44,980 bases of DNA from a virus: positions 1 through 44,980 of IMG/VR virus record IMGVR_UViG_3300028883_000072; one strand, given 5' to 3'. Numbering within the stretch: position 1 is the stretch's first letter; each line of letters starts with the position of its first letter. Below, one piece after another: positions 7,392 to 43,590 of this stretch. The notes beneath the pieces are model-generated. The model saw only the letters and a list, made by a program, of their open reading frames with translations, was not told the origin of the DNA and made no database searches. Both the position numbers and the translations under genes were made by a program.

Positions 7392-9506
7392 ATGGCGACA
7401 TCCAGCAGAGATTTCATTTCAGCGAACTCGGACTATGTCGACACGAACGACCCGTGTACAAGTTGGCCTGCCTCAGATTGGACCCTGTCGTGCTGGGTGA
7501 GATTGGACGATGGGCAACCCAGCGCACTAAATGCCTTGCTTGGCGTTGTTAAGGTGGGAGACACAGACCGGCTGTTTGCGAATGTCGATACTGCTGGCGC
7601 CCTTTATCTATTACTCGGAGTGAACGGAGACACTGCCCGTGCGCAAACTGCAGCGGCTATTTTTGCGGATGGCCAGACGTCTTGGACGCATATAGCTTTC
7701 CGACAAGACTGGACGGCGAATGAAGGCGGCGGACAGCTCGATATCTTTGTTAACGGTTCAAAGCAGACGCTCGACGACACAAACAACGGTGACACGACGG
7801 GTTTGACTGCGGGGAGCTGGAACGCTCCGGGTGGCAATCTTGCTATAGGGGCAATTAACTACGTAGCCAGCGGATTGAACTACCACATCGACGGTCAGCT
7901 TGCTGACTTTCGCCGCTACTCCGAGGCGCTTTCTGACGCCGACATAGCTGTGCTCGCGACCGGCAACATGTCCGCGCTGATGACTGCGACGCTTGAGGCT
8001 GAATGGCTCAGGAATGGCGCCGTCACGGACTACATGGGGAACTTCCCGCCGACGAATCATGGCAGCGACGACAGCACAGAGCGGCCTCCGGTGTCCGAGA
8101 CGATGGCGAGCAGGGGGTTCGACTCGACGATTGACCAATGCGTCGACACGAACGACCCGATGACTGACTGGCCGAAGAGTGACTTCACGCTCGCTTTCTG
8201 GATCCGGCTCGATGACGGGCAACCAGCGTCTTACCGAGGGATTTTCGGTGTAGACAATACAGACCCAGTGACAAACCGAGTGTCCGTATTGATCCCGGCA
8301 AGTGGAAAACTGGAGGGTTACATGGGGGCGGGCGGCACCAGCGCGATAGCTCAGACTGCCGCAGCCGTGTTTCCAGATGGGCAGACAGGTTGGTACCACA
8401 TCGCCCTGCGGCAGGATTGGACGGCGAATGAAGGTGGCGGACAGCTCGACATTTTCGTCAATGGCTCAAAGCAGACGCTTGATGAAACCTACAATGGCGA
8501 TACGTCTGCGTTGACTCCCGCGAACTGGACGGCAAACGGCGACATGCCTATCGGGGCAGTCAGACGAAACGATTCGACTTTGCAGTACCTTTTCGACGGT
8601 CAGCTTGCTGACTTTCGCCGCTACTCCGAGGCCCTGTCCGACGCCGACATCGCGGTTCTCGCTACGGGAAACATGTCGGCGCTGATGACTGCCACACTTG
8701 AAGCAGAGTGGCTTAGAAACGGCGCTGTGTCCGATTACATGGGGAATTTCTCTCCCACTAACCACGGCAGCAGCGACAGCCCAGAGCGGCCTCCGGTGTC
8801 CGAGGTGACCGGATGCCGTGACTTCGACTCGACGATTGACCAATGCGTCAACACGAACGATCCGATGACGTCGTGGCCAAAGAGCGATTTCACTGTTGCG
8901 TTTTGGGCGCGTCTCGATGACGGACAAACCGAGTCGACGGACATGTTCTGGGGTGTCCGCGCGGACCCGCAGGACATGGTTCTGCAAATGCTGGTGTCCA
9001 GCGGTTCGCTACAGGCGTCATTCGAAATTGATGACGTGCTTGCTCGTACCGTAATCCTGTCAGTGTTTCCCGACGGTCAGACAGGTTGGTACCACATCGC
9101 CCTGCGGCAGGATTGGACCGCGAATGAAGGTGGCGGACAGCTCGACATTTTCGTTAATGGCTCAAAGCAGACGCCGACAGCACCTAACACTGGAGACACG
9201 TCCGCCCTCACGGCTGCGAGCTGGGTATCACCTGCGATCATGTATGTGGGCGCTCGAAATCGCGAGGGGACCGGGCGAGACAGTGGTATAGACGGTCAGA
9301 TATCTGACTTCATGCGATACTCTCGCGCCCTCACCGACAACGAGATCCTGTCCTTGTCGAAGGGCGAAGAGCCTGCGATGTTCGCGGACCTCGAAACGCA
9401 CATCCTCCACATGGGCCAGATGCGCGACGAAACCGGCAACATCGAACCCAGCAATTACGGGAGTGCTGACAGCGCTCTCGGTCCACCCGTTCCAGGAGGC
9501 AATTGA
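7392..9506 (+). CDS. Triplicated LamG/concanavalin A-like tail adhesin (704 aa)
   Basis: Three successive modules of about 235 residues begin near residues 1, 238 and 474. Each carries the same landmarks in order: a TNDP..SWP opening, a W.RLDDGQ strand, FPDGQTGWYHIALRQDWT (or variant), GGGQLDIFVNGSKQT, and FMRYSRAL or FRRYSEAL. This is the pattern of a LamG-type jelly-roll (Laminin_G_3) sugar- or protein-binding domain. Modules 2 and 3 are close to identical at DNA level over the central strand region, so they arose by recent duplication or exchange. The position after the ejection proteins and among other beta-rich genes suggests a receptor-binding fibre or spike component. No pectate-lyase helix or hydrolase motif is visible. 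Confidence 0.82.
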   Translation: MATSSRDFISANSDYVDTNDPCTSWPASDWTLSCWVRLDDGQPSALNALLGVVKVGDTDRLFANVDTAGALYLLLGVNGDTARAQTAAAIFADGQTSWTHIAFRQDWTANEGGGQLDIFVNGSKQTLDDTNNGDTTGLTAGSWNAPGGNLAIGAINYVASGLNYHIDGQLADFRRYSEALSDADIAVLATGNMSALMTATLEAEWLRNGAVTDYMGNFPPTNHGSDDSTERPPVSETMASRGFDSTIDQCVDTNDPMTDWPKSDFTLAFWIRLDDGQPASYRGIFGVDNTDPVTNRVSVLIPASGKLEGYMGAGGTSAIAQTAAAVFPDGQTGWYHIALRQDWTANEGGGQLDIFVNGSKQTLDETYNGDTSALTPANWTANGDMPIGAVRRNDSTLQYLFDGQLADFRRYSEALSDADIAVLATGNMSALMTATLEAEWLRNGAVSDYMGNFSPTNHGSSDSPERPPVSEVTGCRDFDSTIDQCVNTNDPMTSWPKSDFTVAFWARLDDGQTESTDMFWGVRADPQDMVLQMLVSSGSLQASFEIDDVLARTVILSVFPDGQTGWYHIALRQDWTANEGGGQLDIFVNGSKQTPTAPNTGDTSALTAASWVSPAIMYVGARNREGTGRDSGIDGQISDFMRYSRALTDNEILSLSKGEEPAMFADLETHILHMGQMRDETGNIEPSNYGSADSALGPPVPGGN

Positions 9507-31853: not shown

Positions 31854-32788
31854 AGATTACAGTAACCGGATCAAGATTCTGCGTCAGGGCCATGAAGCAA
31901 TTGGTCTCTTTGCGCGTGCTCAAGCAGGACGCCACGCTTTTCTCTCCGCTTGGGGCAGTGGTCCAGGAGGAGTTTCTTCCGTTTATCGGGCCTGTGAGCT
32001 ACTGCATCAACTGGGTGACCGGTCTCGACGCCGCTGATACGGATGTCCTGCATCTCCATTGCGAGCCCTTTCCGAAGGTGCAGGAGCTGGATATGCTGCC
32101 ACGTCCCGCGGTGCTTGACGTGCATGACCTCGACACCATACGAACCGGCGAGGTGTGTGAGAACGAGGCGGCGGCGCTTCGCCACCCGAACGTGGTCGGG
32201 GTGTTGTTTCCGGGTCCGTCTTACGAGAGGCGGGCGCGGGAGCTCATCGACTTTGATGCACCATCTGAGTGGGTTCCATCCGCGGTTCCGCGGGCGTTCA
32301 TTGTCGATCAGCCGCGGCCCTATCTCGGCGGGATAGCCTATCAGGGGGCTCTGTCTGTCCCGTGGGAGACAGGGGTGTTCGCGTACGCAGATTACACCAG
32401 GGCGGTGACCGAGTCCGAGGAGCAGTTCTACTTGTACAGCTCCAACTATCGTGAGAGCCACATGAACTGGTATCAGAATCTTGGCGCGGTATACCGGCCG
32501 AAGCAGACGTATTTCGAGCTTCTCGCCGAGCTGAGTCGGCACGAATACGGCTGGTGCAAAGCGGGGGCTCCCTGCGACCAGTGGAGGTACGCGCTGACGA
32601 ACAAGTTCTTCGAGTACCTGGCCGCCGGCATAGAGCCGCTGGTCGGAGAAAGTATCGACTCGCTTGAGCTCCTCGCCCTAGTTAGCGGCCGCACACGTCC
32701 GGATTTTATCGAAGCGGCGAATGATCTTGCCATGGAGCGCTTTGTCGAAGGGCGCTTACTCCCGTTCTACGAGAAGGTGGCCGGATGA
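31850..32788 (+). CDS. Glycosyltransferase-like (GT-B) protein between terminase genes (312 aa)
   Basis: It overlaps both neighbours by four bases. The pattern fits a GT-B glycosyltransferase: N-terminal KITVTGSRFCVRAMKQ, then DVLHLHCEPFP and AVLDVHDLDTI in the first domain, EWVPSAVP at the hinge, and LTNKFFEYLAAGIEPLVGES (about 247-266) in the donor-binding domain, where the NKxFEYxAAG-like phrase is typical of GT4-type enzymes. It lacks a strict EX7E. Possible targets are virion protein, modified phage DNA bases or host surface sugar. The donor is unknown. Confidence 0.72.
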   Translation: MKITVTGSRFCVRAMKQLVSLRVLKQDATLFSPLGAVVQEEFLPFIGPVSYCINWVTGLDAADTDVLHLHCEPFPKVQELDMLPRPAVLDVHDLDTIRTGEVCENEAAALRHPNVVGVLFPGPSYERRARELIDFDAPSEWVPSAVPRAFIVDQPRPYLGGIAYQGALSVPWETGVFAYADYTRAVTESEEQFYLYSSNYRESHMNWYQNLGAVYRPKQTYFELLAELSRHEYGWCKAGAPCDQWRYALTNKFFEYLAAGIEPLVGESIDSLELLALVSGRTRPDFIEAANDLAMERFVEGRLLPFYEKVAG

Positions 32789-34320
32789 CAGAGCCGAAGT
32801 ACGAGCACGCGCTCAGGAAATTGCAGCACTATTTGCTGAGGTGGCGAGGGGACATTCAGGCTTACGGCCGGGAGGTTTTCGGCCAGGAGCTGACGCACCA
32901 GCAGGTTGCCGCTGCTCGGGAGTTTCTCGGTCACAAGTTCCTTGCTATCCGGTCCGGGCATGGGGTGGGGAAGTCGTTTCTGCTGTCGCTGGTGGTTCAT
33001 TGGTATCTCGACACAAAGCGGGTTCCGGGTCGGCCATGTCGCGTTCCTTGCACCGGGGCAAGCCGTGCTCAGCTCGATGATGTGCTCTGGACCGAGGTCA
33101 ACTCGCTTATGGAGAAGAAGGCGTCGTGGTTCTCCGAGAAGTTTGACATCAACCAGGACCGGTATTATGCGACTGAGTCGGCGAAGGACTGCTTCGCTGT
33201 TCTCCGCACGGCGAGGCGTGAGCAGCCCGACGCATTGCAGGGGTTTCATCAGTGTCTGTATCTCATCGACGAGGGCTCCGGCGTTCCGGACGAGGTCTTT
33301 GAGGTGGCGCAGGGGGCGATGGGCGACGAGGGCGCCATGGGCTTTATGACTGGGAACCCGACTCGCATCGAGGGCTACTTCCACAAGGTGTTTCATGAGC
33401 CGACGATGTGGAAGACGATGCACATGCCCTCGACAGAGTCGCTTACCAGCAGGACGTACGAGTACCGGTATTGCGATGCGCTTGGTAGCGTCCATAAGGT
33501 TCAGGTTCATGGCCGGCAGACAGAGTCCTGGGTCAAGAGCATGGCGGAGGAGCACGGGGAGGGCAGCGCGACGTATCGCGTTCGCGTGCTCGGGAAGTTT
33601 GCGACCATTTCAGAGGATCTCGTCGTCCGGCCAGTGTGGGTCGCCCGGGCAAGAGAGCCTATGCGGGTCCGGTCTGTTGACGCTCGGCGCAAGAAGGTGA
33701 TGGGGGTTGACGTCGCCTGGCACGGCGATGACGCCAGCGCGGCGGTTCTTCGACAAGGAGACTTGGTCTATGCTGTTCATGAGTGGCGCGGGGACGATCC
33801 GTCTATTGTGGCGCTTCGAACGAAGGAGCTGATTTTGGATTGGAAGCCCGATTTCATCTATGTCGATACGATCGGCATTGGGGCTGGTGTCTATTCTATT
33901 CTTCTTCACGAAGGGCTGAAAGTTCGGCGTCTGCTGTCGAACGCAAAGCCCCCGGACGACAACGAGACGCAGTGTCGGTATCTCCGCGATTGGCTTTATT
34001 GGCGGATGCGTAAGGCGTTTCGGCGGGGGCTGGTGTTTGCTCCGGACCAGTTGTCGCTCGAAGATAAGATCTGGAAGGAACTCGGGGATGAGTGCATGCG
34101 CCCGACCTATCAGTACACATCCACACTAAAGTTCCAGGTGGAGTCGAAGGACAAGATGCGAGCTCGCGGCGTAAAGAGCCCGAACCTTGCGGACGCGCTT
34201 GCATTTACGTTCATGACCGACATGGACGAGCCGCGCGCTGGCGGGGGGTGCCAGGACGGCAAAGTGTCGAAGCGGATAAAGCAGCAGATGAACCGCAAGA
34301 GGAATTGGAAGGTGATCTGA
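32785..34320 (+). CDS. terL: Large terminase subunit (511 aa)
   Basis: ATPase: Walker A RSGHGVGKS at 56-64, Walker B LYLIDEGSG with D162-E163, and the coupling motif MTGNPT near 188. RNase H-like nuclease: D308 in MGVDVAWHGDD, D360 in FIYVDTIGIG, and PNLADALAF with a third Asp near 486. This is a complete packaging motor that translocates DNA into the procapsid and cuts concatemers. The start overlaps the glycosyltransferase stop. Together with a P22-like portal it suggests headful packaging, to be confirmed by end mapping. Confidence 0.95.
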   Translation: MTEPKYEHALRKLQHYLLRWRGDIQAYGREVFGQELTHQQVAAAREFLGHKFLAIRSGHGVGKSFLLSLVVHWYLDTKRVPGRPCRVPCTGASRAQLDDVLWTEVNSLMEKKASWFSEKFDINQDRYYATESAKDCFAVLRTARREQPDALQGFHQCLYLIDEGSGVPDEVFEVAQGAMGDEGAMGFMTGNPTRIEGYFHKVFHEPTMWKTMHMPSTESLTSRTYEYRYCDALGSVHKVQVHGRQTESWVKSMAEEHGEGSATYRVRVLGKFATISEDLVVRPVWVARAREPMRVRSVDARRKKVMGVDVAWHGDDASAAVLRQGDLVYAVHEWRGDDPSIVALRTKELILDWKPDFIYVDTIGIGAGVYSILLHEGLKVRRLLSNAKPPDDNETQCRYLRDWLYWRMRKAFRRGLVFAPDQLSLEDKIWKELGDECMRPTYQYTSTLKFQVESKDKMRARGVKSPNLADALAFTFMTDMDEPRAGGGCQDGKVSKRIKQQMNRKRNWKVI

Positions 34321-34393
34321 TTTCGAGGCGATATCGCCGGGTTTTCGGCAATTGACGCATGCTGGCCCCTATGGGTAAGACCATGGAGGTGGC

Positions 34394-36037
34394 ATGCCGA
34401 CCAATCGCACAAGCAACATCCATAAGTTTGATCGCTGGCTTGCGTCTGCGGAGGTTTACGAGTCCAATTGGCGCAAGGACAACGAGTTCAATTTCTCCTA
34501 CTATGACAATGATCAGTGGACCGACGCGGAGGAGGATATCCTCGAGAGTCGGGGTCAGCAGCCGACCACACTGAACGTTGTCCGTCCGACCATCGACATG
34601 GTTCTCGCCCTGGAGCAGTCGAAGCGCTCCGATATGCAAGTTGTCGGGCGGGAAGAGTCGGACGAGGTCATCGCCCGCCTCCTGACAGAGCTTCTGACCC
34701 AGGTCTACGACGAGAACGATATCGACTACTACCTCAGTCGTGTCTTCCGTGAGGGCATCATCGGCGGGCGCGCCTGGGCGCATACTTACCCGGCGAAAGA
34801 CGCCTCCGGACAGGTTTGCGTTCGGGTTGATTGGGTTCCGTGGGAGGAGGTCTTTGTCGATCCCTTCCACCGCCGGCCGGACGGCTCGGACGCCCGCTGG
34901 CAGATTCGTCGTGTCTGGATGGACCGGGACTACGTGAAGAAGAAGTGGCCCGGCAAGAGCGCCGAGGTGGACTCCGCGTTCAACGAGGACTACGAGGGGA
35001 TCGAGTACGAGGGCCAGGTGTCCGCCATGGACCGTGGCCTCAGCTACTACGACAAGAAGACCGACCGTGTCGCTGTTCACTATTGCTGGTATCGGGACGC
35101 GAATCGGGTTCTCAAGCACGTTGTTTTCGCCGAGGAGGTGTTCTTTGTGGGGGGCCCCGAAGGAAAGAACCCCGACCCTTACGGGATCGACACATACCCC
35201 TTCACACCGTTCTACTCCTTCCGGACCCGCAAAGGGCACCCCCGCGGCCTTGTTCGTCTTCTGCGTTCTGTGCAGGATCAGATAAACAAGCTCAACAGCA
35301 AGTACCTGTGGAACATGAGTGCCAATCGTCTGATGTACGAGACTGGCGCAGTGATGGACCCGGACAGTCTTCGAGAGGAGTTCAACCGCCCGGATGGCGT
35401 GGTTGAGCTTGTAGAGGGCGGGATGGGCCGGGTCAGGACCGAAGAGAACTTGCGGGAGAGCTCCTATTTGGCGCAGCATCTTCAGTTCCTATTGGCCATG
35501 GTCCAGCGTATCAGTGGCGTGAACGACTCGATGCTCGGCTATGGGGGCATGAACGAGCGCAGCGCCATGCAGCAGGAGAACCGCATACTCCAGGGCGCGG
35601 CCATGCAAACGCAGATTCTTGAGAATCTGCACTTCACCAAAAAGCAGGTGTCCCGGTCAGTGCTTCGCCTGATAGGCAAGTACTACACCGAGCGGAAGGT
35701 GATTCGGATTGTGCAGCCGAATGGGGAGTGGAAGCACTATGCGATGAACAATCCGACCGGTGAGACTGGCGAGGATGGAAAGCCAATTCTTGAGAACGAG
35801 ATAGGTGATATTCTGAAGTACGACGTGATCATGAAGAGCGTCCCACCGTTCAGCACGACTCGGGAGCGTTCTGCTCAGATCATTTCGGAAGTGGCGAAGG
35901 CCGGCGTTTTGCCGGCTGAGCTGGTTGGCAAGGTATTGATCCAGTTGCTGGACATTCCTCACAAGGAGGAACTCGTTTTCCAACTGGAGCAGGCGATGCA
36001 GGCTGCGCAGGCAGCCGAGCAGTCGCAAGAGACTTGA
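34394..36037 (+). CDS. P22-like portal protein (547 aa)
   Basis: ATG 34394 follows GGAGGT. The order WRKDNEFNFSYYDNDQW, TLNVVRPTIDMVLALEQSKR, GGRAWAHTY, WVPWEEVFVDPFHRRPD, then VRLLRSVQDQINKLNSKYLW and a C-terminal helical barrel part ending in acidic/Gln-rich residues, matches P22-type portals. Twelve copies would form the vertex through which terminase loads DNA and to which the short tail attaches. The length is below that of P22 gp1, whose extra C-terminal barrel appears reduced here. Confidence 0.9.
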   Translation: MPTNRTSNIHKFDRWLASAEVYESNWRKDNEFNFSYYDNDQWTDAEEDILESRGQQPTTLNVVRPTIDMVLALEQSKRSDMQVVGREESDEVIARLLTELLTQVYDENDIDYYLSRVFREGIIGGRAWAHTYPAKDASGQVCVRVDWVPWEEVFVDPFHRRPDGSDARWQIRRVWMDRDYVKKKWPGKSAEVDSAFNEDYEGIEYEGQVSAMDRGLSYYDKKTDRVAVHYCWYRDANRVLKHVVFAEEVFFVGGPEGKNPDPYGIDTYPFTPFYSFRTRKGHPRGLVRLLRSVQDQINKLNSKYLWNMSANRLMYETGAVMDPDSLREEFNRPDGVVELVEGGMGRVRTEENLRESSYLAQHLQFLLAMVQRISGVNDSMLGYGGMNERSAMQQENRILQGAAMQTQILENLHFTKKQVSRSVLRLIGKYYTERKVIRIVQPNGEWKHYAMNNPTGETGEDGKPILENEIGDILKYDVIMKSVPPFSTTRERSAQIISEVAKAGVLPAELVGKVLIQLLDIPHKEELVFQLEQAMQAAQAAEQSQET

Positions 36038-36105
36038 GCGGCTTGTCGGATCGCAGGTAGCGACTCCCGACAGAGTAACAAGGCCGCTCTGAACGAGGTG
36101 AAGCG

Positions 36106-36900
36106 ATGGAAACCGCAGACAAGTTGATCGATTCGCTTGGAGAAAGCGAAGAGCCGGCGAGCGAGCTCCTGCATGATGAGGGGTTCGACCCGGAGCAGGA
36201 CAGCGTGCTCCCCGAGGATTCGGCCGAGAAGGCCCCCGAGGATGAGCAGAGGCCGGAAGAGAAGAAGCCGGAAGAGCCGAGTGAGGCCGACTTGCTCAAG
36301 AAGCAGCTCGAAGAGCTTCAGGCGCAGAACGAGAAGCTGGACAAGCGGTACAAAGACACGCAAGCCTCGTACACGAAAGGGCAGCAGCAGATCGCGGAGC
36401 TTCAGAAGAAGCTCGAGAGCAAAGAGGACTCTTACTTTGCTGAAGAGGAGATTTCCTCTGGGGAAGAAACGCCGCAGCTCGAGTCTCTCCGTAAGGAGAT
36501 CGAAGATATGCGTGCCGATCTTGCCAGGCAGAGGTGGGAGGTGGCCGCGGCTCCGGTCAAGGCCGCGCATGACGACTTCGGAGAGGTCGTCGAGGAGCTT
36601 CTGGCTACTGCCCTTGAGACCGATGCGGCTCTGGCGGAGCGGTACGCTGAGATGGGGAAGACCCCCGAGAATGCGTACAAGCTCGGGAAGGAGCTCAAAG
36701 AGAAGCAAGAGATCCTGAGGGATCCTGAGGCGTACCGAGAGAAACTGAAACAGCAACTCATGGAGGAGCTGAAGAGTACCGAAGAGCCCTCGGAGAAGAA
36801 AAAGCCGGCGCCCGAGCTGCCTGATACCGATATGGGTACGGACAACAGCGCTAAGGGTGCGGCTCCTCCGGAGGGGAGCGTGCTTGACGAGCTCTTCTGA
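36106..36900 (+). CDS. Scaffolding protein (264 aa)
   Basis: ATG at 36106 after GAGGTGAAG. The protein is very acidic and nearly all helix: an Asp/Glu-rich N-terminus, a long coiled coil (ADLLKKQLEELQAQNEKLDKR), a Glu/Lys helix near residues 185-245 and a disordered tail. Position directly between portal and capsid and this composition are typical of internal scaffolds that guide procapsid assembly and then leave. No protease domain is visible in it. Confidence 0.85.
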   Translation: METADKLIDSLGESEEPASELLHDEGFDPEQDSVLPEDSAEKAPEDEQRPEEKKPEEPSEADLLKKQLEELQAQNEKLDKRYKDTQASYTKGQQQIAELQKKLESKEDSYFAEEEISSGEETPQLESLRKEIEDMRADLARQRWEVAAAPVKAAHDDFGEVVEELLATALETDAALAERYAEMGKTPENAYKLGKELKEKQEILRDPEAYREKLKQQLMEELKSTEEPSEKKKPAPELPDTDMGTDNSAKGAAPPEGSVLDELF

Positions 36901-36915
36901 TAGGAGACCAGAAAG

Positions 36916-37983
36916 ATGGCGTATTTCATTCGCGGCACGGGAAGTGACCTCACTCCCATCCAACACTCGAAATCGATCTTCAAGAACTACCTTAAGCAGA
37001 TGTCCTTGAAGGGCCTGATGGGCAAGAAGGGCTCCGGAAAGCCCATCATCGTCGATGACACACTGAAGGCGCAGGCTGGCGACACGATCCGCTACCACTT
37101 CATCCCCCAGGATGACACTGACGGCATCGAGGGCCAGAACGCCAGCGTCAGCGGCAACGAGAGCAGCCTGGACGAGTACTCCATGGACCTGCGTGTCGAC
37201 CAGATCGGCAAGGCGTTTCGCCGTGAAGGCAAGATGACCAAGCAGCGCATCATCTGGGACTTCCGTCCGGAGGCCAAGATGCAGCTGGAGAACTGGTTTG
37301 CCCAGCGCAGCGAGGACTGGCTGTTCCAGGCGATGACCGGTGTCCGCGACGGTATGAGCTACGCCTGGACCGCGACGACCGACTTGGTCAGCGGTACCGG
37401 CCGCTGCATCCGTGCTGACGGTTCGAACGGCTCGGCCGCGGTAACCGCCGCGAACAGCGACAACACCGCGCTTGCCTCCGCGATCAGTGGCTCCGATAAG
37501 ATGAACTGCCGCCTCATTGAGGATGCGGTCATCATGGCTCGTACCGCCGGCACCTACAAGGTCCGCCCGATCAAGGTCGGCCCGAATGGTGAGGAGTTCT
37601 TCATCCTGTTCCTCAGTCTCCAGGCCGCCCGCGATCTTCGCTTCACGGCTGACTGGCTGAATCACGCATACAGCGTGGTGGAGCGCGGGATCGAGAAAGA
37701 TCCGATCGCTCACGGCGCCCTGGGCGTCTGGAACAACGTGATCTTGAAGCCCACCGAGCGGGTTCTGACGTTCGCCGACAGCACCGAGACCATCGCCCGT
37801 AATCTCCTGGTTGGCGCAGACGCTGCCGTCCTGGGCTGGGCTCAGACGATGGACTACTCGGAAGAGGCGCACGAGCACGGTCGCTGGTGGAGAGCCTACG
37901 GCGACGAGATCCGGGGCCAGAAGAAGCTGGCCTTCAACAGCGTCGATTGCGGCGTGGTCCAGGTCGTTACGGCCAGCAACTAA
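36916..37983 (+). CDS. Major capsid protein (355 aa), Phage_capsid_3/DUF4043-like
   Basis: AGGAG precedes ATG 36916. The N-terminal phrase TPIQHSKSIFKNYLKQMSLKG, then KPIIVDDTLKAQAGDTIRYHFIP, LDEYSMDLRVDQIGKAFRR and a long axial helix (EAKMQLENWFAQRSEDWLFQAM), resemble the DUF4043/N4-gp56-like HK97-fold capsid family. The order after portal and scaffold is canonical. Codon use is strongly biased to C/G-ending codons, as expected for an abundant protein. Confidence 0.88.
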   Translation: MAYFIRGTGSDLTPIQHSKSIFKNYLKQMSLKGLMGKKGSGKPIIVDDTLKAQAGDTIRYHFIPQDDTDGIEGQNASVSGNESSLDEYSMDLRVDQIGKAFRREGKMTKQRIIWDFRPEAKMQLENWFAQRSEDWLFQAMTGVRDGMSYAWTATTDLVSGTGRCIRADGSNGSAAVTAANSDNTALASAISGSDKMNCRLIEDAVIMARTAGTYKVRPIKVGPNGEEFFILFLSLQAARDLRFTADWLNHAYSVVERGIEKDPIAHGALGVWNNVILKPTERVLTFADSTETIARNLLVGADAAVLGWAQTMDYSEEAHEHGRWWRAYGDEIRGQKKLAFNSVDCGVVQVVTASN

Positions 37984-37995
37984 GGGAGGTCAATC

Positions 37996-38316
37996 ATGGC
38001 CAGCACAGATGCATCAGGGGCTGTACTCCCTGTTACTCGTAGTTCCCTGGGCGGCGGTCTGTACCTGGCCGCCGGTCGGGCGACGTTCAGTTCCGGAACG
38101 GTCGAGGTAGCTACCGGTCTGAGTCGTGTCGAGCATTTCGCCGCGACACAGATCGGTACGCTCACCGCGACGGAAGCGGTGATCATCCAGGTCGATGAGG
38201 ACTTCCCCGTCGAGAGTGGGACGCTCACTGTAAAAGGGATCGCGGCCGATGTCGGCGGCGCTACCGTTGGCGGGGCCGCAGAGTCCTTCAGTTGGATCGC
38301 AATCGGATACCGATAA
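37996..38316 (+). CDS. Beta-rich capsid-region protein (106 aa), decoration candidate
   Basis: AGGGAGG precedes the ATG, 12 bases after the capsid stop. Ser/Thr/Ala/Gly-rich, alternating hydrophobics (GTVEVATGLSRVEHFAATQ; LTVKGIAADVGGATV), no helices of note. The size and position suit a capsid decoration or head-stabilising protein. No family recognised. Confidence 0.65.
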   Translation: MASTDASGAVLPVTRSSLGGGLYLAAGRATFSSGTVEVATGLSRVEHFAATQIGTLTATEAVIIQVDEDFPVESGTLTVKGIAADVGGATVGGAAESFSWIAIGYR

Positions 38317-38331
38317 GAGGAGAATACAACA

Positions 38332-38952
38332 ATGGCTTCTTTCACTGCCTACACGAAATGCAACACCCCGAACCGGCTGTATACGCCGATTCTCTGGAAG
38401 ACGGTCGACGTTGACCTCTCCAAGAGTGAGATGGCGTCCGCGCTGGCTCAGGGCACCCACGGAATCGCAGATCTCGACGACAACGAGGCTGTGATCGGCG
38501 GCTTCCTGTTCGTCAGCACGGCGTTTGCCGGTGCTACCGCAACCGTTCAGCTCAAGGTCGGTTCGACCGCGCTCACCGGGGCGATCCCGGTGGCAACGCT
38601 GGCTGACGAGACCTACATTCCACTCGGTTTCGGCCTGACTCAGGGCCAGACGGCACTCACGGACAGCACTGGCGCGACCGCCAGCAGTGTCCTTGTCGAT
38701 ACCGCCAGCGGGACCACAGAGGACATTGACGTCAGCGATGTCAATGTCAACTTCGCATCCATCGCCGCTCAGCTCGCGCTGATCAAGACGGATGTGGCCA
38801 AGCTCATCGCTCCGGTGAGCGGCGTGGCAACCGCTTTCGCGACCGCGGCCGACACGGTCGACATGGTTGTGGCAACGGCCGATCTCACGGCCGGTCGGAT
38901 GACCGTCTGCTTGCAGACGATCAATGTCGACAGCTTCACCACCAATGGCTAA
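38332..38952 (+). CDS. Capsid-region structural protein (206 aa)
   Basis: GAGGAG precedes ATG 38332. Beta-type sequence in the first 130 residues (VIGGFLFVSTAFAGATATVQLKV), then a helical segment (IAAQLALIKTDVAKLIAP) and a final beta hairpin. It is cotranscribed with capsid and followed by a strong hairpin that may set the end of the high-level capsid message. Probably virion-associated; exact role unknown. Confidence 0.6.
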   Translation: MASFTAYTKCNTPNRLYTPILWKTVDVDLSKSEMASALAQGTHGIADLDDNEAVIGGFLFVSTAFAGATATVQLKVGSTALTGAIPVATLADETYIPLGFGLTQGQTALTDSTGATASSVLVDTASGTTEDIDVSDVNVNFASIAAQLALIKTDVAKLIAPVSGVATAFATAADTVDMVVATADLTAGRMTVCLQTINVDSFTTNG

Positions 38953-38958
38953 GAGGTA

Positions 38959-38993
38959 GGCGCCCACTTCGGCTTTTAACCGGAGTGGGCGCC
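38959..38993 (+). terminator. Strong hairpin after the capsid gene cluster
   Basis: A 14-bp stem, GGCGCCCACTTCGG with CCGGAGTGGGCGCC (one G-U type pair), with a 7-base loop. No U-run follows (CCTCCGCC), so it is more likely an RNA-stability or partial-stop element separating the abundant capsid message from the tail genes. Confidence 0.55.
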
Positions 38994-39019
38994 CCTCCGC
39001 CGAGCGAGGCGTAACAGAC

Positions 39020-40114
39020 ATGGCTGTTCAGCTTTTTGAGGAGCTTCGAAAGCGCATCCGGCGGGAGTGCCAGGACGAGGACGGCACGTACTGGACCGAC
39101 GACGAGCTTGATGCGTATATAGCGGAGGCGCAGAACGACTTCTGCGAACGGACAGAGTGTCTCAAGACGAACGCGATGATCCCGTCCGCGCAGGATGGCT
39201 TCGTCTACAACCTTCCCGACGACTGCATCGAGCTCAATCGGGTGACTGATGAGGATGATGCGATTCTCGGTATTGTGCGTGCCGACGAGCTTGAGGGTGA
39301 GCTTGGCGGGAATGCCAGCGATTTCTCCGCGACCGGTGACCCGCAGTATGCCGTGATCGGGCTCGATGACCCGAATCAGTTTAGGCTGTACCCGCGCCCG
39401 TCGTCGAGTGCCCTGCCCGACAGGTCCACTTTCACCGGGTTGTGGCACGAGGTGGCAGACATCAACGTTCGCGGCTCCGCGTTTTACGACTGTCGTGGGC
39501 TGTACAGCGACGATAACTGGCTCTTTGCCGGTTTCAGCTATTACAAAGCGTTTGCCGTTCGCCGGCAGGACTGGACGCTGAGAAAGGGCGGTCTCGCTAC
39601 CTCTTTCTATGATGAGACAGGGACTGTGTACGGAGGCCCGCTTGTCAATGCCGAGTCGAGTCCAATAAACATTTACCGGGTTGGTGCGGTCGGGAAAGAC
39701 GGCAGTATTCGCCAGACCTCGAATGTGGACGGGTCCGTTACCGCCGCAGCGAACGCGATGATCGAGGGCCTGTCTATTGGCGGCGGGTATCGCTACTACG
39801 GGGTCAACTTGACTGTCGGGGACGACGTGACCTATCGGGCGGATGAGCTGGTCGAGGCTTCTCCTGTGGAGATCACCTTCGACGGGAACAGCGAGCTGGC
39901 GAAGTACATCGCCTATCATCGGCAGACTGACGTCGTGGCCTTTGCGGTAGATGTCGGAGGTGTCGGGACTCCGAATATCGAGGTGTACGCAGACGACTAT
40001 GACGACACGACTCCGGATCTCGTTATCGACCCGGTGAACGGCATGGACCACGTACTTGGTCTGTTTTACGATATGGATGCGAATCTGTATCTTGTTGGCA
40101 ATGATCCGCGCTGA
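39020..40114 (+). CDS. Head-tail adaptor N-terminal part with beta-propeller-like extension (364 aa)
   Basis: Residues 1-150 read like a podovirus head-tail adaptor: LFEELRKRIRRECQDEDGTYWTDDELDAYIAEAQ, then YNLPDDCIELNRV. The remainder has repeated strand units such as LYSDDNWLFAGF, TDVVAFAVDVGG and HVLGLFYDMDANLYLVG, which look like blades of a beta-propeller. It stops at TGA 40112-40114, and the same frame resumes three codons later as the next gene. The adaptor's usual C-terminal helix is missing here but present at the end of that gene. So this is half of a split or read-through protein. Confidence 0.75.
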   Translation: MAVQLFEELRKRIRRECQDEDGTYWTDDELDAYIAEAQNDFCERTECLKTNAMIPSAQDGFVYNLPDDCIELNRVTDEDDAILGIVRADELEGELGGNASDFSATGDPQYAVIGLDDPNQFRLYPRPSSSALPDRSTFTGLWHEVADINVRGSAFYDCRGLYSDDNWLFAGFSYYKAFAVRRQDWTLRKGGLATSFYDETGTVYGGPLVNAESSPINIYRVGAVGKDGSIRQTSNVDGSVTAAANAMIEGLSIGGGYRYYGVNLTVGDDVTYRADELVEASPVEITFDGNSELAKYIAYHRQTDVVAFAVDVGGVGTPNIEVYADDYDDTTPDLVIDPVNGMDHVLGLFYDMDANLYLVGNDPR

Positions 40115-40123
40115 GGAGTTGTG

Positions 40124-40840
40124 ATGGCCACCGATTTTCGGGTAATCAAATATGACGGCGTATCCGCGACGGTGCTGGCGGAAGATCTGCTGTATGCGAC
40201 GTACGATCCCGCGGGGGACCGGATTCTTGCGGTCGACATGGATGGGTATCTGTGCGAAGTGGACAAGACGACGGGCGCAACCACGCAATTGGTCAGCGTG
40301 CAGATTTTTGATGGCGACGTCACGATGGTGCGCGGAATCAAGGCGCTCGATGGCGGCTATTACGTCTTGGCGTCAAAAGACTCCAAGACCGGAAGCGCGG
40401 GGCGCGGTGAGGGGGACGCAGAGGCGCAGAGCAAGCTCCTGTTTTACAGCGCTGATGTCGGGGTCGTGGTGGGCGGCACGGACGATGACGACGGTTCGGC
40501 GGTCGCCTCCGATTCGGAAGCAGGCGCGGTTGTTGATATCCTGTCCAGCGACGAAGCTGTGATCGGGCCGAGCGACAATGGCGGCGTCGTCCAGGTGAAC
40601 GAGGACAGCACTGCCGTTCGGCTGTTTTACTCCCGATACCCGGAGAAGGACCAGTTTGAGTTGCCGAAGCAGGCGGAAAAGGCGCTGGTTTACTACGCGC
40701 TGAGCAAGTGCTACGCGAAAGAGACCGACGAGAAGTACCTGGCGAAGGCGGGGTCGTACGCGAACTCCTACCTCTCCGAGGTGAACAAGTACATGAAGCG
40801 GGTAGCGAAGAAAATGAGACCGAAGTCGGTCCACTACTAG
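40124..40840 (+). CDS. Beta-propeller-like continuation and adaptor C-terminal helix (238 aa)
   Basis: It is in the same frame as the previous gene, separated only by TGA GGA GTT GTG. GAGGAG (40113-40118) lies five bases before ATG 40124, so re-initiation is possible. The start, DFRVIKYDG, then LLYATYDPAGDRILAVDMDGYLCEVD, continues the blade pattern of the upstream product. The end, SRYPEKDQFELPKQAEKALVYYALSKCYAKETDEKYLAKA, is the C-terminal helical part expected of the adaptor begun upstream. The two polypeptides together look like one adaptor with a propeller inserted in it. Confidence 0.75.
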   Translation: MATDFRVIKYDGVSATVLAEDLLYATYDPAGDRILAVDMDGYLCEVDKTTGATTQLVSVQIFDGDVTMVRGIKALDGGYYVLASKDSKTGSAGRGEGDAEAQSKLLFYSADVGVVVGGTDDDDGSAVASDSEAGAVVDILSSDEAVIGPSDNGGVVQVNEDSTAVRLFYSRYPEKDQFELPKQAEKALVYYALSKCYAKETDEKYLAKAGSYANSYLSEVNKYMKRVAKKMRPKSVHY

Positions 40841-40849
40841 GAGAGGCAG

Positions 40850-41641
40850 ATGGCCACCACATTCAAAAAGGAGCGTCTCGGCAAGCAGGACATCCTGTGG
40901 GATCAGGACGGGACGGGCTCGACGACGCAAGTGAGCACCTCCTCCGGCGGTCTCCGCGAGGTGGCGAAGGTTAACGCAACGCATGTCCCCGTCACCACGT
41001 CGGTGCGGGCGAAGAACTACGCGGACGGATCCAATGTTGGGAGTGCAGGCGACAATTACGTTGATGACGTCTTGAAGCAACTGCTTGACGACGTCGAGGA
41101 TCTCGGCCAGCCCGATGCCAGCACGCTCGAGAACGACAGCGGGACTCTTCAGGTCAAGGACAGCGGTATCACGAACGCCAAGCTGGCCCCTGCCTCCGGG
41201 ACCGCTGCGGTTTCCGGCTCCGGCGGGGCCGGAATCAACGTTATCGAGGCGGCCAGTATTGGTGAAACGGAACTCGCCGACGACTGCATCGACTCCGACA
41301 AGATCGCGAATGACGCGGTTGACTCCGCGGACTACATCGCGGACGACACGGTCTCGCTGGAGCATCTCGATACCGGGCTCATTCCGTCCGGCATGACGTG
41401 CGCGGTTGCGGTGGCCACCGGCATTCACACTTGGACCGGTGCGGCGACTGACACCAACACGGTCACGATTGCCAACGTGCTGGCTACGGACACAGTACAG
41501 GCCACCATCCACAGTAACAATTCCGCGGACCAGATCGAGGCTGTTTACACCGGGTCCGGAAACATCACGATTGTGTTGATTGCGAATGGCACGCTGAACG
41601 TTACGAAGATCAACTATACCGTATTCAGGGCTATGAGCTGA
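40850..41641 (+). CDS. Tail-fibre-like protein (263 aa)
   Basis: AGGAG precedes the ATG. A region of short repeats, SIGETELADDCIDSDKIAND, VDSADYIADDTVSLEHLD, is the loose heptad-like motif of fibre shafts. It is followed by a compact beta C-terminal domain (VTIANVLATDTVQATIHSNN) ending in a helix-free strand. It overlaps the nozzle gene by one base (TGATG). Probably a trimeric fibre or a nozzle-attached protein. Confidence 0.65.
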   Translation: MATTFKKERLGKQDILWDQDGTGSTTQVSTSSGGLREVAKVNATHVPVTTSVRAKNYADGSNVGSAGDNYVDDVLKQLLDDVEDLGQPDASTLENDSGTLQVKDSGITNAKLAPASGTAAVSGSGGAGINVIEAASIGETELADDCIDSDKIANDAVDSADYIADDTVSLEHLDTGLIPSGMTCAVAVATGIHTWTGAATDTNTVTIANVLATDTVQATIHSNNSADQIEAVYTGSGNITIVLIANGTLNVTKINYTVFRAMS

Positions 41642-43590
41642 TGGCTGAGGCCAAGCTGACATCTTTTCGCGGCGGGATTAACAACTGGCTGGAACCGCAT
41701 TTGATCGAGGCGGACCAGGCTACTCGCCTTCGCGACTTCGGTGTCAGGACAGGAGCGCTGGTCCCTCTTCGCGGTGCCGGTGAGAGCCCGTCTCGCCCGG
41801 AGGAACTTGCGTACGTTTCCGCCGCGCGCTCTCTGGTTCGGTGGGGCGGTCACTACTTCTGGAGTGATAACGAGACCGGTGCTCTCGACTCCAGCATCGG
41901 CTACTTCGGCGTTGAGTCTCCCGAGTCATCGCCGGTGGTCGTGCCGTATCGGCGGGGCAGCCGATTTGTCGGCAAGTACACCTACCTATGCACGTTCTCC
42001 ACTGTGAATGGGGAAGAGAGCGGGACGGGGCCTGTTGGTGCCGCGACCACATTCAACGCAACCACCATTGACACAAGTACGCCGTATGCGGTTATCAGTG
42101 AAGACACAACCACTCTTGATTCGGCCGATATTCCCAGGTTCAATGCGTCCAATATCGCGCTTGACCGGTCCGGGGAGTCGACGTATGCGTTCCGCGGTTA
42201 CGTTGAAGCAGGGCAGATAGTTGGCCCGAAGAACCCCAATAGCGCGATTGGCCATATCATGTATGGCTACAACGTCGGGGATCTTGCTCAGTTGGACGAC
42301 GTGGCCTATCAGTGTGTGCAGGACATTCGGTATGATGCGTGGGGGGAGTACGACCAGAAAGGTAGCAAGACGCTTTTCCAGCGCAGGACAGCGCTGCCGG
42401 AGGCGTATTGGCCCGGGAGGAATCCAGTATACTGGACGGAGCTCGGGGCGATAGACTCCAGCACGCTCGAGGTGGTTACTACCGGCTATGACAGCTTGCG
42501 GATCACGCTGCCCAAGCCGAGGAGTAAAGCGGTGTCTCACGTAAACCTGTATCGGACGGTAGCGGACGGGGCCACCTACTACCGGGTTGCGTCTGTACCG
42601 GTCGGAGCGGAGCGCCACCTGGACAACACGACCGACGAGAAGCTCATTGCCAACGGATCTCTCCGCTCGACGTCAGCATATCCGCCACTCTACAAATTCG
42701 CGAATGGTGGATGGGAGGACGTGGGCGGGATGTATCTCACCGAGTCAGGGGGCGTTTTCGCTCTGGCGTACGGCGATCGGATGTATCTGTCGGAGCAAAG
42801 CTCCCCGCACAGTTGGAACCCTCTTAACTGGGTTGGGTTTGAGGACACAATCACCGGGGCCGCCATCGCCGGCAGCGATCGGCTGGTGTTCACGCAGAAC
42901 AGGACGTATCGGGTGTCCGGGTCTTCCATTGCCGACCTGGTGAAGACCGATCTTAACGCCGGTCAGGGATGCACGAACTGGCGCACTGTGGCCTACATTC
43001 GGAATACTCCCGTGTGGATGAGCAACGATGGTCTCTGCTCATATTCGCCGGTCCCCAACCAGGACGGGAAGTACGTTGTGCTTCCAGTAAACAATCGGTA
43101 CACCTTTTCGCCGGGGTACGTGTTTGCGGTCGCCGCAAATGACGTTTACTGGCTGTTCTACGAGGACTACGCGGTCGGGGTGGATTTCAGTGAAGAGCTT
43201 CGCGTGTACGAGTACACCGTTTCGGTTACGGAAGCCTACTACGATCCGGACGGGGATGTCCTTCTCGGGAAGCGTAGGTCTGATGGCCGGTGGGTGTCGC
43301 TGTTCACCGGGCCGGTCCTGAAGGGCGAGTACTCTTCGCCGAATCTTGTTGCCGGTGACCCGTTGTCACGCAAGAGGTTCAGGCAAGTTCGGGTTGACGC
43401 CGACGAGTCCGTCGAGCTGTCCGCTTCCGTGGACGGGTCTGTTGTCTACAGCAAGGAGCTGAAGGGGCCGTTCCCCAGATTCTACTACCTCCCCTCGAAA
43501 GCGAGAGGGCGTGGGTGCGTACTGACAGTGAAATCTAAAGGCACGGTGCGGTCACTTTCCGTCGAAGTGGTTCCGACGCCGGGGAGGTAG
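41641..43590 (+). CDS. Tail nozzle/stabilisation-like protein (649 aa)
   Basis: The N-terminus LTSFRGGINNWLEPHLIEADQATRLRDFGVRTGALVPLRG matches a common podovirus tail-tube/nozzle opening (gG.N....p..i...qa..l.n......G.l.p..g). The body has fibronectin-like strands (YTYLCTFSTVNGEESGTGP), a propeller-like centre (RMYLSEQSSPHSWNPLNWVGF, VFTQNRTYRVSG) and a beta C-terminus. This order after the adaptor fits a P22 gp10/T7 gp12-type nozzle. The role is inferred from pattern and synteny. Confidence 0.75.
   Translation: MAEAKLTSFRGGINNWLEPHLIEADQATRLRDFGVRTGALVPLRGAGESPSRPEELAYVSAARSLVRWGGHYFWSDNETGALDSSIGYFGVESPESSPVVVPYRRGSRFVGKYTYLCTFSTVNGEESGTGPVGAATTFNATTIDTSTPYAVISEDTTTLDSADIPRFNASNIALDRSGESTYAFRGYVEAGQIVGPKNPNSAIGHIMYGYNVGDLAQLDDVAYQCVQDIRYDAWGEYDQKGSKTLFQRRTALPEAYWPGRNPVYWTELGAIDSSTLEVVTTGYDSLRITLPKPRSKAVSHVNLYRTVADGATYYRVASVPVGAERHLDNTTDEKLIANGSLRSTSAYPPLYKFANGGWEDVGGMYLTESGGVFALAYGDRMYLSEQSSPHSWNPLNWVGFEDTITGAAIAGSDRLVFTQNRTYRVSGSSIADLVKTDLNAGQGCTNWRTVAYIRNTPVWMSNDGLCSYSPVPNQDGKYVVLPVNNRYTFSPGYVFAVAANDVYWLFYEDYAVGVDFSEELRVYEYTVSVTEAYYDPDGDVLLGKRRSDGRWVSLFTGPVLKGEYSSPNLVAGDPLSRKRFRQVRVDADESVELSASVDGSVVYSKELKGPFPRFYYLPSKARGRGCVLTVKSKGTVRSLSVEVVPTPGR

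Follow-up and report, generated by a model that had tools for sequence, protein, structure and literature searches.

The window analysed here, i.e. the whole stretch of 44,980 nt of viral DNA (IMG/VR record IMGVR_UViG_3300028883_000072), contains two consecutive genes at positions 39020-40114 and 40124-40840, whose products we call chain N and chain C. The preliminary description of this DNA had stated that the two genes share one reading frame and are separated only by TGA GGA GTT GTG, and the ORFs and the junction sequence confirmed this. Across the junction the sequence reads ...GAT CCG CGC TGA GGA GTT GTG ATG GCC..., in which the TGA (40112-40114), a GTG (40121) and the ATG (40124) all lie in the same frame; the GTG and the ATG, which open chain C, come six bases past the stop, and chain C has 238 aa when counted from ATG 40124. 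The GAGGAG site that had been pointed out before ATG 40124 is present, and its pairing with the anti-Shine-Dalgarno (anti-SD) sequence amounts to -8.7 kcal/mol, a value matched by just 3.3% of 307 internal start-like codons and typical of the other genes of this phage (range -12.2 to -1.8 kcal/mol). The features of the locus are summarized in Table 1.

Table 1. Features of the split adaptor locus and of the genes downstream of it, in window coordinates
Feature	Position	Strand	Basis
Adaptor chain N, 364 aa: N-terminal helices/strand and first part of the insert, ending at TGA	39020..40114	+	ORF; PF24175 1.7e-13, residues 7-129
Adaptor N-terminal part, about residues 1-129	39020..39406	+	PF24175 and phrog_399; 43% identity to L031 over 1-130
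Insert share of chain N: apparent blades 1-4 and strands A and B of blade 5	39407..40111	+	Models, Foldseek; not present in adaptors of 208-217 aa
Final strand of chain N, predicted as strand B of blade 5 (residues 356-362 of the joined protein)	40085..40105	+	Model
Junction CGC TGA GGA GTT GTG ATG, in-frame stop then restart	40109..40126	+	Sequence
Shine-Dalgarno GAGGAG, overlapping TGA, 5 nt upstream of ATG 40124	40113..40118	+	Sequence, anti-SD pairing
Adaptor chain C, 238 aa: remaining propeller, dock-like repeats, C-terminal strand and helices	40124..40840	+	ORF, profiles, relatives
Predicted propeller share of chain C: strands C and D of blade 5, blades 6 and 7	40124..40495	+	Model, Foldseek
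Opening strand of chain C, predicted as strand C of blade 5 (residues 372-379 of the joined protein)	40133..40156	+	Model
GVV..D..S.. segment, similar to repeats in the dock of the Edwardsiella KF-1 adaptor (single-chain)	40460..40612	+	Alignment; tblastn of chain C against KF-1, 3.96e-4
C-terminal strand (VRLFYSRYP) and helices of the adaptor, by which the fold started in chain N is completed	40613..40837	+	PF24175 108-182, phrog_2125 0.0016, L031 33%
Fibre-like protein with conserved N-terminus (KK..GKQD...D..GT), proposed to be bound by the propeller dock	40850..41641	+	Adjoins adaptor in window, L002 and L031
Nozzle / tail hub protein, expected lower neighbour of the adaptor	41641..43590	+	phrog_511 7.3e-29

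The pair sits between the capsid gene (36916-37983) and the gene of the nozzle-like protein, and the order of the neck genes is P22-like portal, Phage_capsid_3 capsid protein, two small genes, the adaptor pair, the fibre-like gene and the nozzle-like protein. A strong hairpin at 38959-38997, with a 14-bp stem (region -42.1 kcal/mol, z -5.8), lies between a 206-aa gene and the adaptor; it is followed by no T-run and is possibly a processing or attenuation element.

Chain N matched the profile PF24175 (SU10_adaptor) over profile positions 4-113 of 194 with an E-value of 1.7e-13 and a score of 51.9 bits against a cut-off of 27, which is consistent with the earlier proposal that it begins as a head-tail adaptor. 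Chain C aligned with profile positions 108-182, weakly when taken alone (0.12), and the joined reading of the two chains matched the profile in two stretches with 3.8e-16. The PHROGs agree with the adaptor identity (phrog_399 and phrog_2125), the best match of chain C being phrog_2125 (0.0016), slightly above phrog_399. Two neighbouring ORFs with adaptor similarity might be two complete paralogous adaptors, as in the dual tubeA podoviruses (PhiGT1 and Bcep22-like phages; PMC10386132), and distant relatives do carry such a pair: BcepIL02 (L023) and the contigs L018 and L019 each have two complete adjacent adaptor paralogues, phrog_399 then phrog_437, with PF24175 matches over most or all of the profile. 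The ORFs of the window, unlike these, hold complementary parts of one protein (profile positions 4-113 and 108-182), profile matches revealed a complete adaptor fold in neither chain alone, and a relative described below has both parts collinear in a single ORF; we therefore consider a dual tubeA arrangement extremely unlikely.

The relative in question, L031, was found by a capsid scan, its capsid protein being 52% identical to that of the window. Its adaptor is one uninterrupted ORF of 573 aa, with an insert of about 340 residues between the two adaptor ends. It matches PF24175 in two stretches (9.8e-18), and its identity is 43% with chain N (1-130) and 33% with chain C (119-222). The preliminary description had suggested a search for uninterrupted homologues, and L031 is such a homologue; the two halves do not behave as unrelated neighbouring genes, as L031 holds both in one ORF. 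Since this single-ORF relative has both adaptor ends, we regard the assignment by sequence of the end of chain C to the adaptor C-terminus as firm, and the claim that chain C ends with the C-terminal helix of the adaptor is borne out by the joined PF24175 match together with the collinear L031 protein. PF24175 adaptors are single polypeptides, as is that of L031, whereas the adaptor is split in the window and in a second relative, L002; because of this split, the window adaptor is a variant rather than a standard member of PF24175.

L002 was found by a portal scan (portal 81% identical to that of the window), and its adaptor also consists of two ORFs in one frame, which are 41% and 43% identical to the window chains. 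The first chains of the window and L002 end at the same aligned residue, with LYLVGNDPR and LFLSGYNRR, respectively, directly before the stop. The junction of L002, AAC AGG AGA TAG AAT ATG, has the stop TAG and another linker, and L002 has an SD of its own, AGGAG, which lies upstream of the stop and 7 nt before ATG 13207; its pairing is -7.4 kcal/mol, a value reached by 6.2% of internal start-like codons. No conservation is seen in the residues that follow the stop (GVV then MATDF in the window, N then MGAPLSGTPVPHF in L002), and the base following the stop is G in the window and A in L002.

These differences bear on the three options left by the preliminary description, namely a two-chain adaptor, a read-through product of the TGA with short and long forms, and a strain or sequence error. 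Since L002 is split with TAG, another linker and its own SD, sequencing error, TGA recoding and conserved read-through are all unlikely. If the stop were a regulatory recoding site, a minor full-length adaptor would be made beside the short form, which would be in keeping with the frame being kept past the stop in both phages and with the existence of a single-chain form in L031. The hallmarks of read-through, i.e. a conserved stop, context and downstream residues, were however not seen, TGA followed by G being replaced by TAG followed by A and the linker not being conserved, while a good SD and an ATG directly after the stop are kept in both phages; in addition, about every second predicted gene of this phage terminates in TGA. 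We thus consider read-through very unlikely. Recoding of TGA was rejected as well, as this codon terminates 13 of the 25 predicted genes and L002 uses TAG. A gene that is really single and is interrupted by a strain mutation or by an error of sequencing or assembly would fit the intact ORF of L031, but this is scarcely credible given that the split occurs at that very residue in an independent contig with 41-43% protein identity, which has another stop and a restart site. The option of two chains is therefore favoured, with L031 as the single-chain counterpart and the rejoining of the chains being our inference.

Insert-bearing adaptors were found in three phages only (the window, L002 and L031, the last two being metagenomic contigs), and two of the three are split. 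When the window chains were used singly as queries, scans of IMG/VR and tblastn against phages and plasmids returned nothing; scans of genome contigs gave no relatives, and scans with the two-chain alignment gave only L002; besides L002 and L031, the final scan returned only ordinary adaptors of about 200 aa. In the literature searched, with most subscription journals outside its coverage, neither an adaptor with a propeller insert nor a two-chain adaptor was found. Profile comparison showed no significant similarity between the L031 insert and the window/L002 insert, which are not reliably alignable; a common origin of the inserts, which differ too much for their sequences to show it, is suggested by their position and context. 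The terminase, portal and capsid proteins of the window are 72-81% identical to those of L002 and 40-52% identical to those of L031, in agreement with a split in the ancestor of the window and L002. The best reading of all three phages is one insertion into the adaptor gene, followed by one split in that ancestor.

Over 32785-43590 of the window, the adaptor chains, fibre and nozzle are only 41-43% identical to those of L002, as against the 72-81% of terminase, portal and capsid; judged from these identities, the tail-facing module is evolving much faster than the latter three genes. In L002 (11674-13203), a shorter homologue of the 206-aa gene that precedes the adaptor (38332-38952 in the window) runs in frame into the adaptor N chain, and there is no start codon near the point where the adaptor begins; this may be a deletion fusion or a contig artefact. 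With synonymous sites near saturation, pN/pS was 0.30-0.67 on both sides of the cut, i.e. synonymous changes exceed nonsynonymous ones; it was 0.30 in the adaptor C-terminal strand and helices, which are among the best conserved parts, and 0.6-0.67 in the insert.

Compared with other adaptors, the joined protein has about 390 extra residues, which in the alignment lie between the R-x-Y-P-x-P strand and the V-R-x-x-Y strand; this insert is absent from adaptors of 208-217 aa and had no domain match in Pfam. AlphaFold2 with the two-sequence alignment gave a pLDDT of 40 and a pTM of 0.39 for the joined protein and 46 and 0.51, respectively, for the insert alone, the blocks around and after the cut having a pLDDT of 70-86. 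The low-confidence insert model consists of successive groups of four strands, in which blades 3-7 are predicted and blades 1-2 are poor. When this model was compared with the PDB by Foldseek, 119 hits had values below 0.001, the best being 8.2e-6; all of the 50 hits listed were propeller-containing by name, including strictosidine synthase, prolyl oligopeptidases, YncE, WD40 proteins and YWTD receptors; the viral library was likewise rich in WD40 and propeller proteins. The TM to propellers was about 0.4, and at this value and a pTM of 0.51 the closure and the blade number are uncertain. By sequence, blade repeats were not significant in a MAFFT leave-one-out test, and in profile self-alignment strand-B-like segments matched each other with a score reached in 2 of 100 column shuffles, which is modest. 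Of the propeller-like blades earlier described as running across the stop, the four-stranded groups and the Foldseek propellers are thus in favour, whereas the pLDDT of 40 and 46 and the weak sequence repeats are not.

The TGA is residue 365 of the joined protein and falls between model strands 356-362 and 372-379, in the fifth apparent blade. The low-confidence model thereby reproduced the cut between the second and third strands of one blade that had been noticed before, and an outcome in which neither half forms blades was not seen in it. We suggest, with low confidence, that the insert is a beta-propeller-like domain and that the cut lies between strands B and C of the fifth blade; the number of blades is probably seven as counted from the model and the sequence, five being modelled and the first two poor. 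A derivation of the propeller from the nozzle is unsupported, as profile comparison of the window/L002 insert with the nozzle showed no significant similarity.

The adaptors of more distant phages are single genes: those of BcepIL02 and of IMG/VR contigs have 208-217 aa (four records with open frames of 216-221), and those of KLEP18-1, MW202744, PH1 and KF-1 an intermediate 254-331 aa. The adaptors of T7, KP32 and SU10 carry a fibre-dock domain (PMC9509320), and from the alignment and the description of SU10 in that paper we infer that the insert site of the window corresponds to the fibre-dock site. SU10 gp11 and T7 gp11 resemble the window adaptor in the N-terminal helices, the C-terminal part, the gene position between capsid and nozzle and the insert at the dock site, but they have a small dock and one chain, against a propeller-like insert of about 390 residues and two chains in the window. 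The adaptor gp83 of Pseudomonas phage DEV has a lectin-like insert of 101 residues in its helical bundle, facing outward (PMC10925440), i.e. an extra domain near the same place, but in a single chain. Edwardsiella phage KF-1 ORF-45 and similar adaptors of 254-331 aa have an intermediate insert at the insert site of the window, and its GV.D repeats are similar to the last part of the insert in the window; these adaptors are encoded by one gene, however, and have no propeller-sized insert. In KF-1 (L024:2783-3778) the single-chain adaptor has 331 aa, and its GV..D-type repeats lie in the dock insert.

Taken together, the products of the two genes are likely to form a single structural unit, namely a podovirus head-tail adaptor of SU10/T7 gp11/P22 gp4 type, with a propeller-like insert, that has been split and rejoins. 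We propose that the split arose in the ancestor of the window and L002, in an insert-bearing adaptor gene, and separated strand B from strand C of blade five. The ribosome would stop at the TGA (40114) and restart at ATG 40124 from GAGGAG on the same message, so that both chains would be made together but separately, presumably by coupled re-initiation. Chain N would contribute the N-terminal helices of the adaptor and just over half of the propeller, namely blades 1-4 with the first half of blade 5. Chain C would complete the cut blade and close the propeller, and its C-terminal strand and helices would lead back into the adaptor core. The chains would co-fold by blade complementation, and the part is probably built from two interlocking chains; reassembly in trans and an adaptor ring of heterodimers would follow from this model. 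A comparable case is that of the Sec13 and Seh1 propellers, which are completed by domain-invasion motifs of their partners in binding that can be co-translational (PMC8907234). There too a propeller is completed in trans by another chain, but a whole blade is missing and the partner is a different scaffold, whereas the predicted cut of the window lies within one blade of one ancestral protein.

Both chains might instead be made without sharing a propeller, chain N being a ring subunit with a partial propeller and chain C a separate neck protein. Such an arrangement would fit the slightly better match of chain C to phrog_2125 than to phrog_399, and the association of the two chains is part of our model; chain N, on the other hand, lacks the adaptor C-terminal strand and helices, which are strongly conserved in chain C (pN/pS 0.30) and which L031 has in one molecule. 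We regard two separate proteins as unlikely.

In the proposed assembly of two co-folding chains, the propeller would most likely face outward and dock the fibre protein encoded next (40850-41641). Searched against 50,697 phage records, this protein had no match; it was found only in the three insert-bearing phages. Because the insert is at the fibre-dock site and the next gene is fibre-like in all three of these phages, the propeller is probably an enlarged fibre dock. The complete picture, a neck ring of heterodimeric insert-bearing adaptors in which two chains close a propeller within one blade, with translation-coupled co-folding and an enlarged fibre dock, has in our judgement an even chance of being correct. 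If so, it would be a natural split protein at the mechanically critical ring which holds the packaged DNA and the tail, and the fibre-dock site of podovirus adaptors could accept a whole propeller-sized domain. As an unsplit relative is still extant, split and unsplit forms could be compared directly; the system would also offer a natural way to find out whether the folding of two chains into one propeller is aided by translational coupling.

Elsewhere in the window, the gene at 7392-9506 encodes a protein of 704 aa with similarity to Laminin_G_3 (ConA-like lectin) in three stretches and weaker similarity to polysaccharide lyase; from these similarities, its product is likely to be a tailspike or receptor-binding protein.
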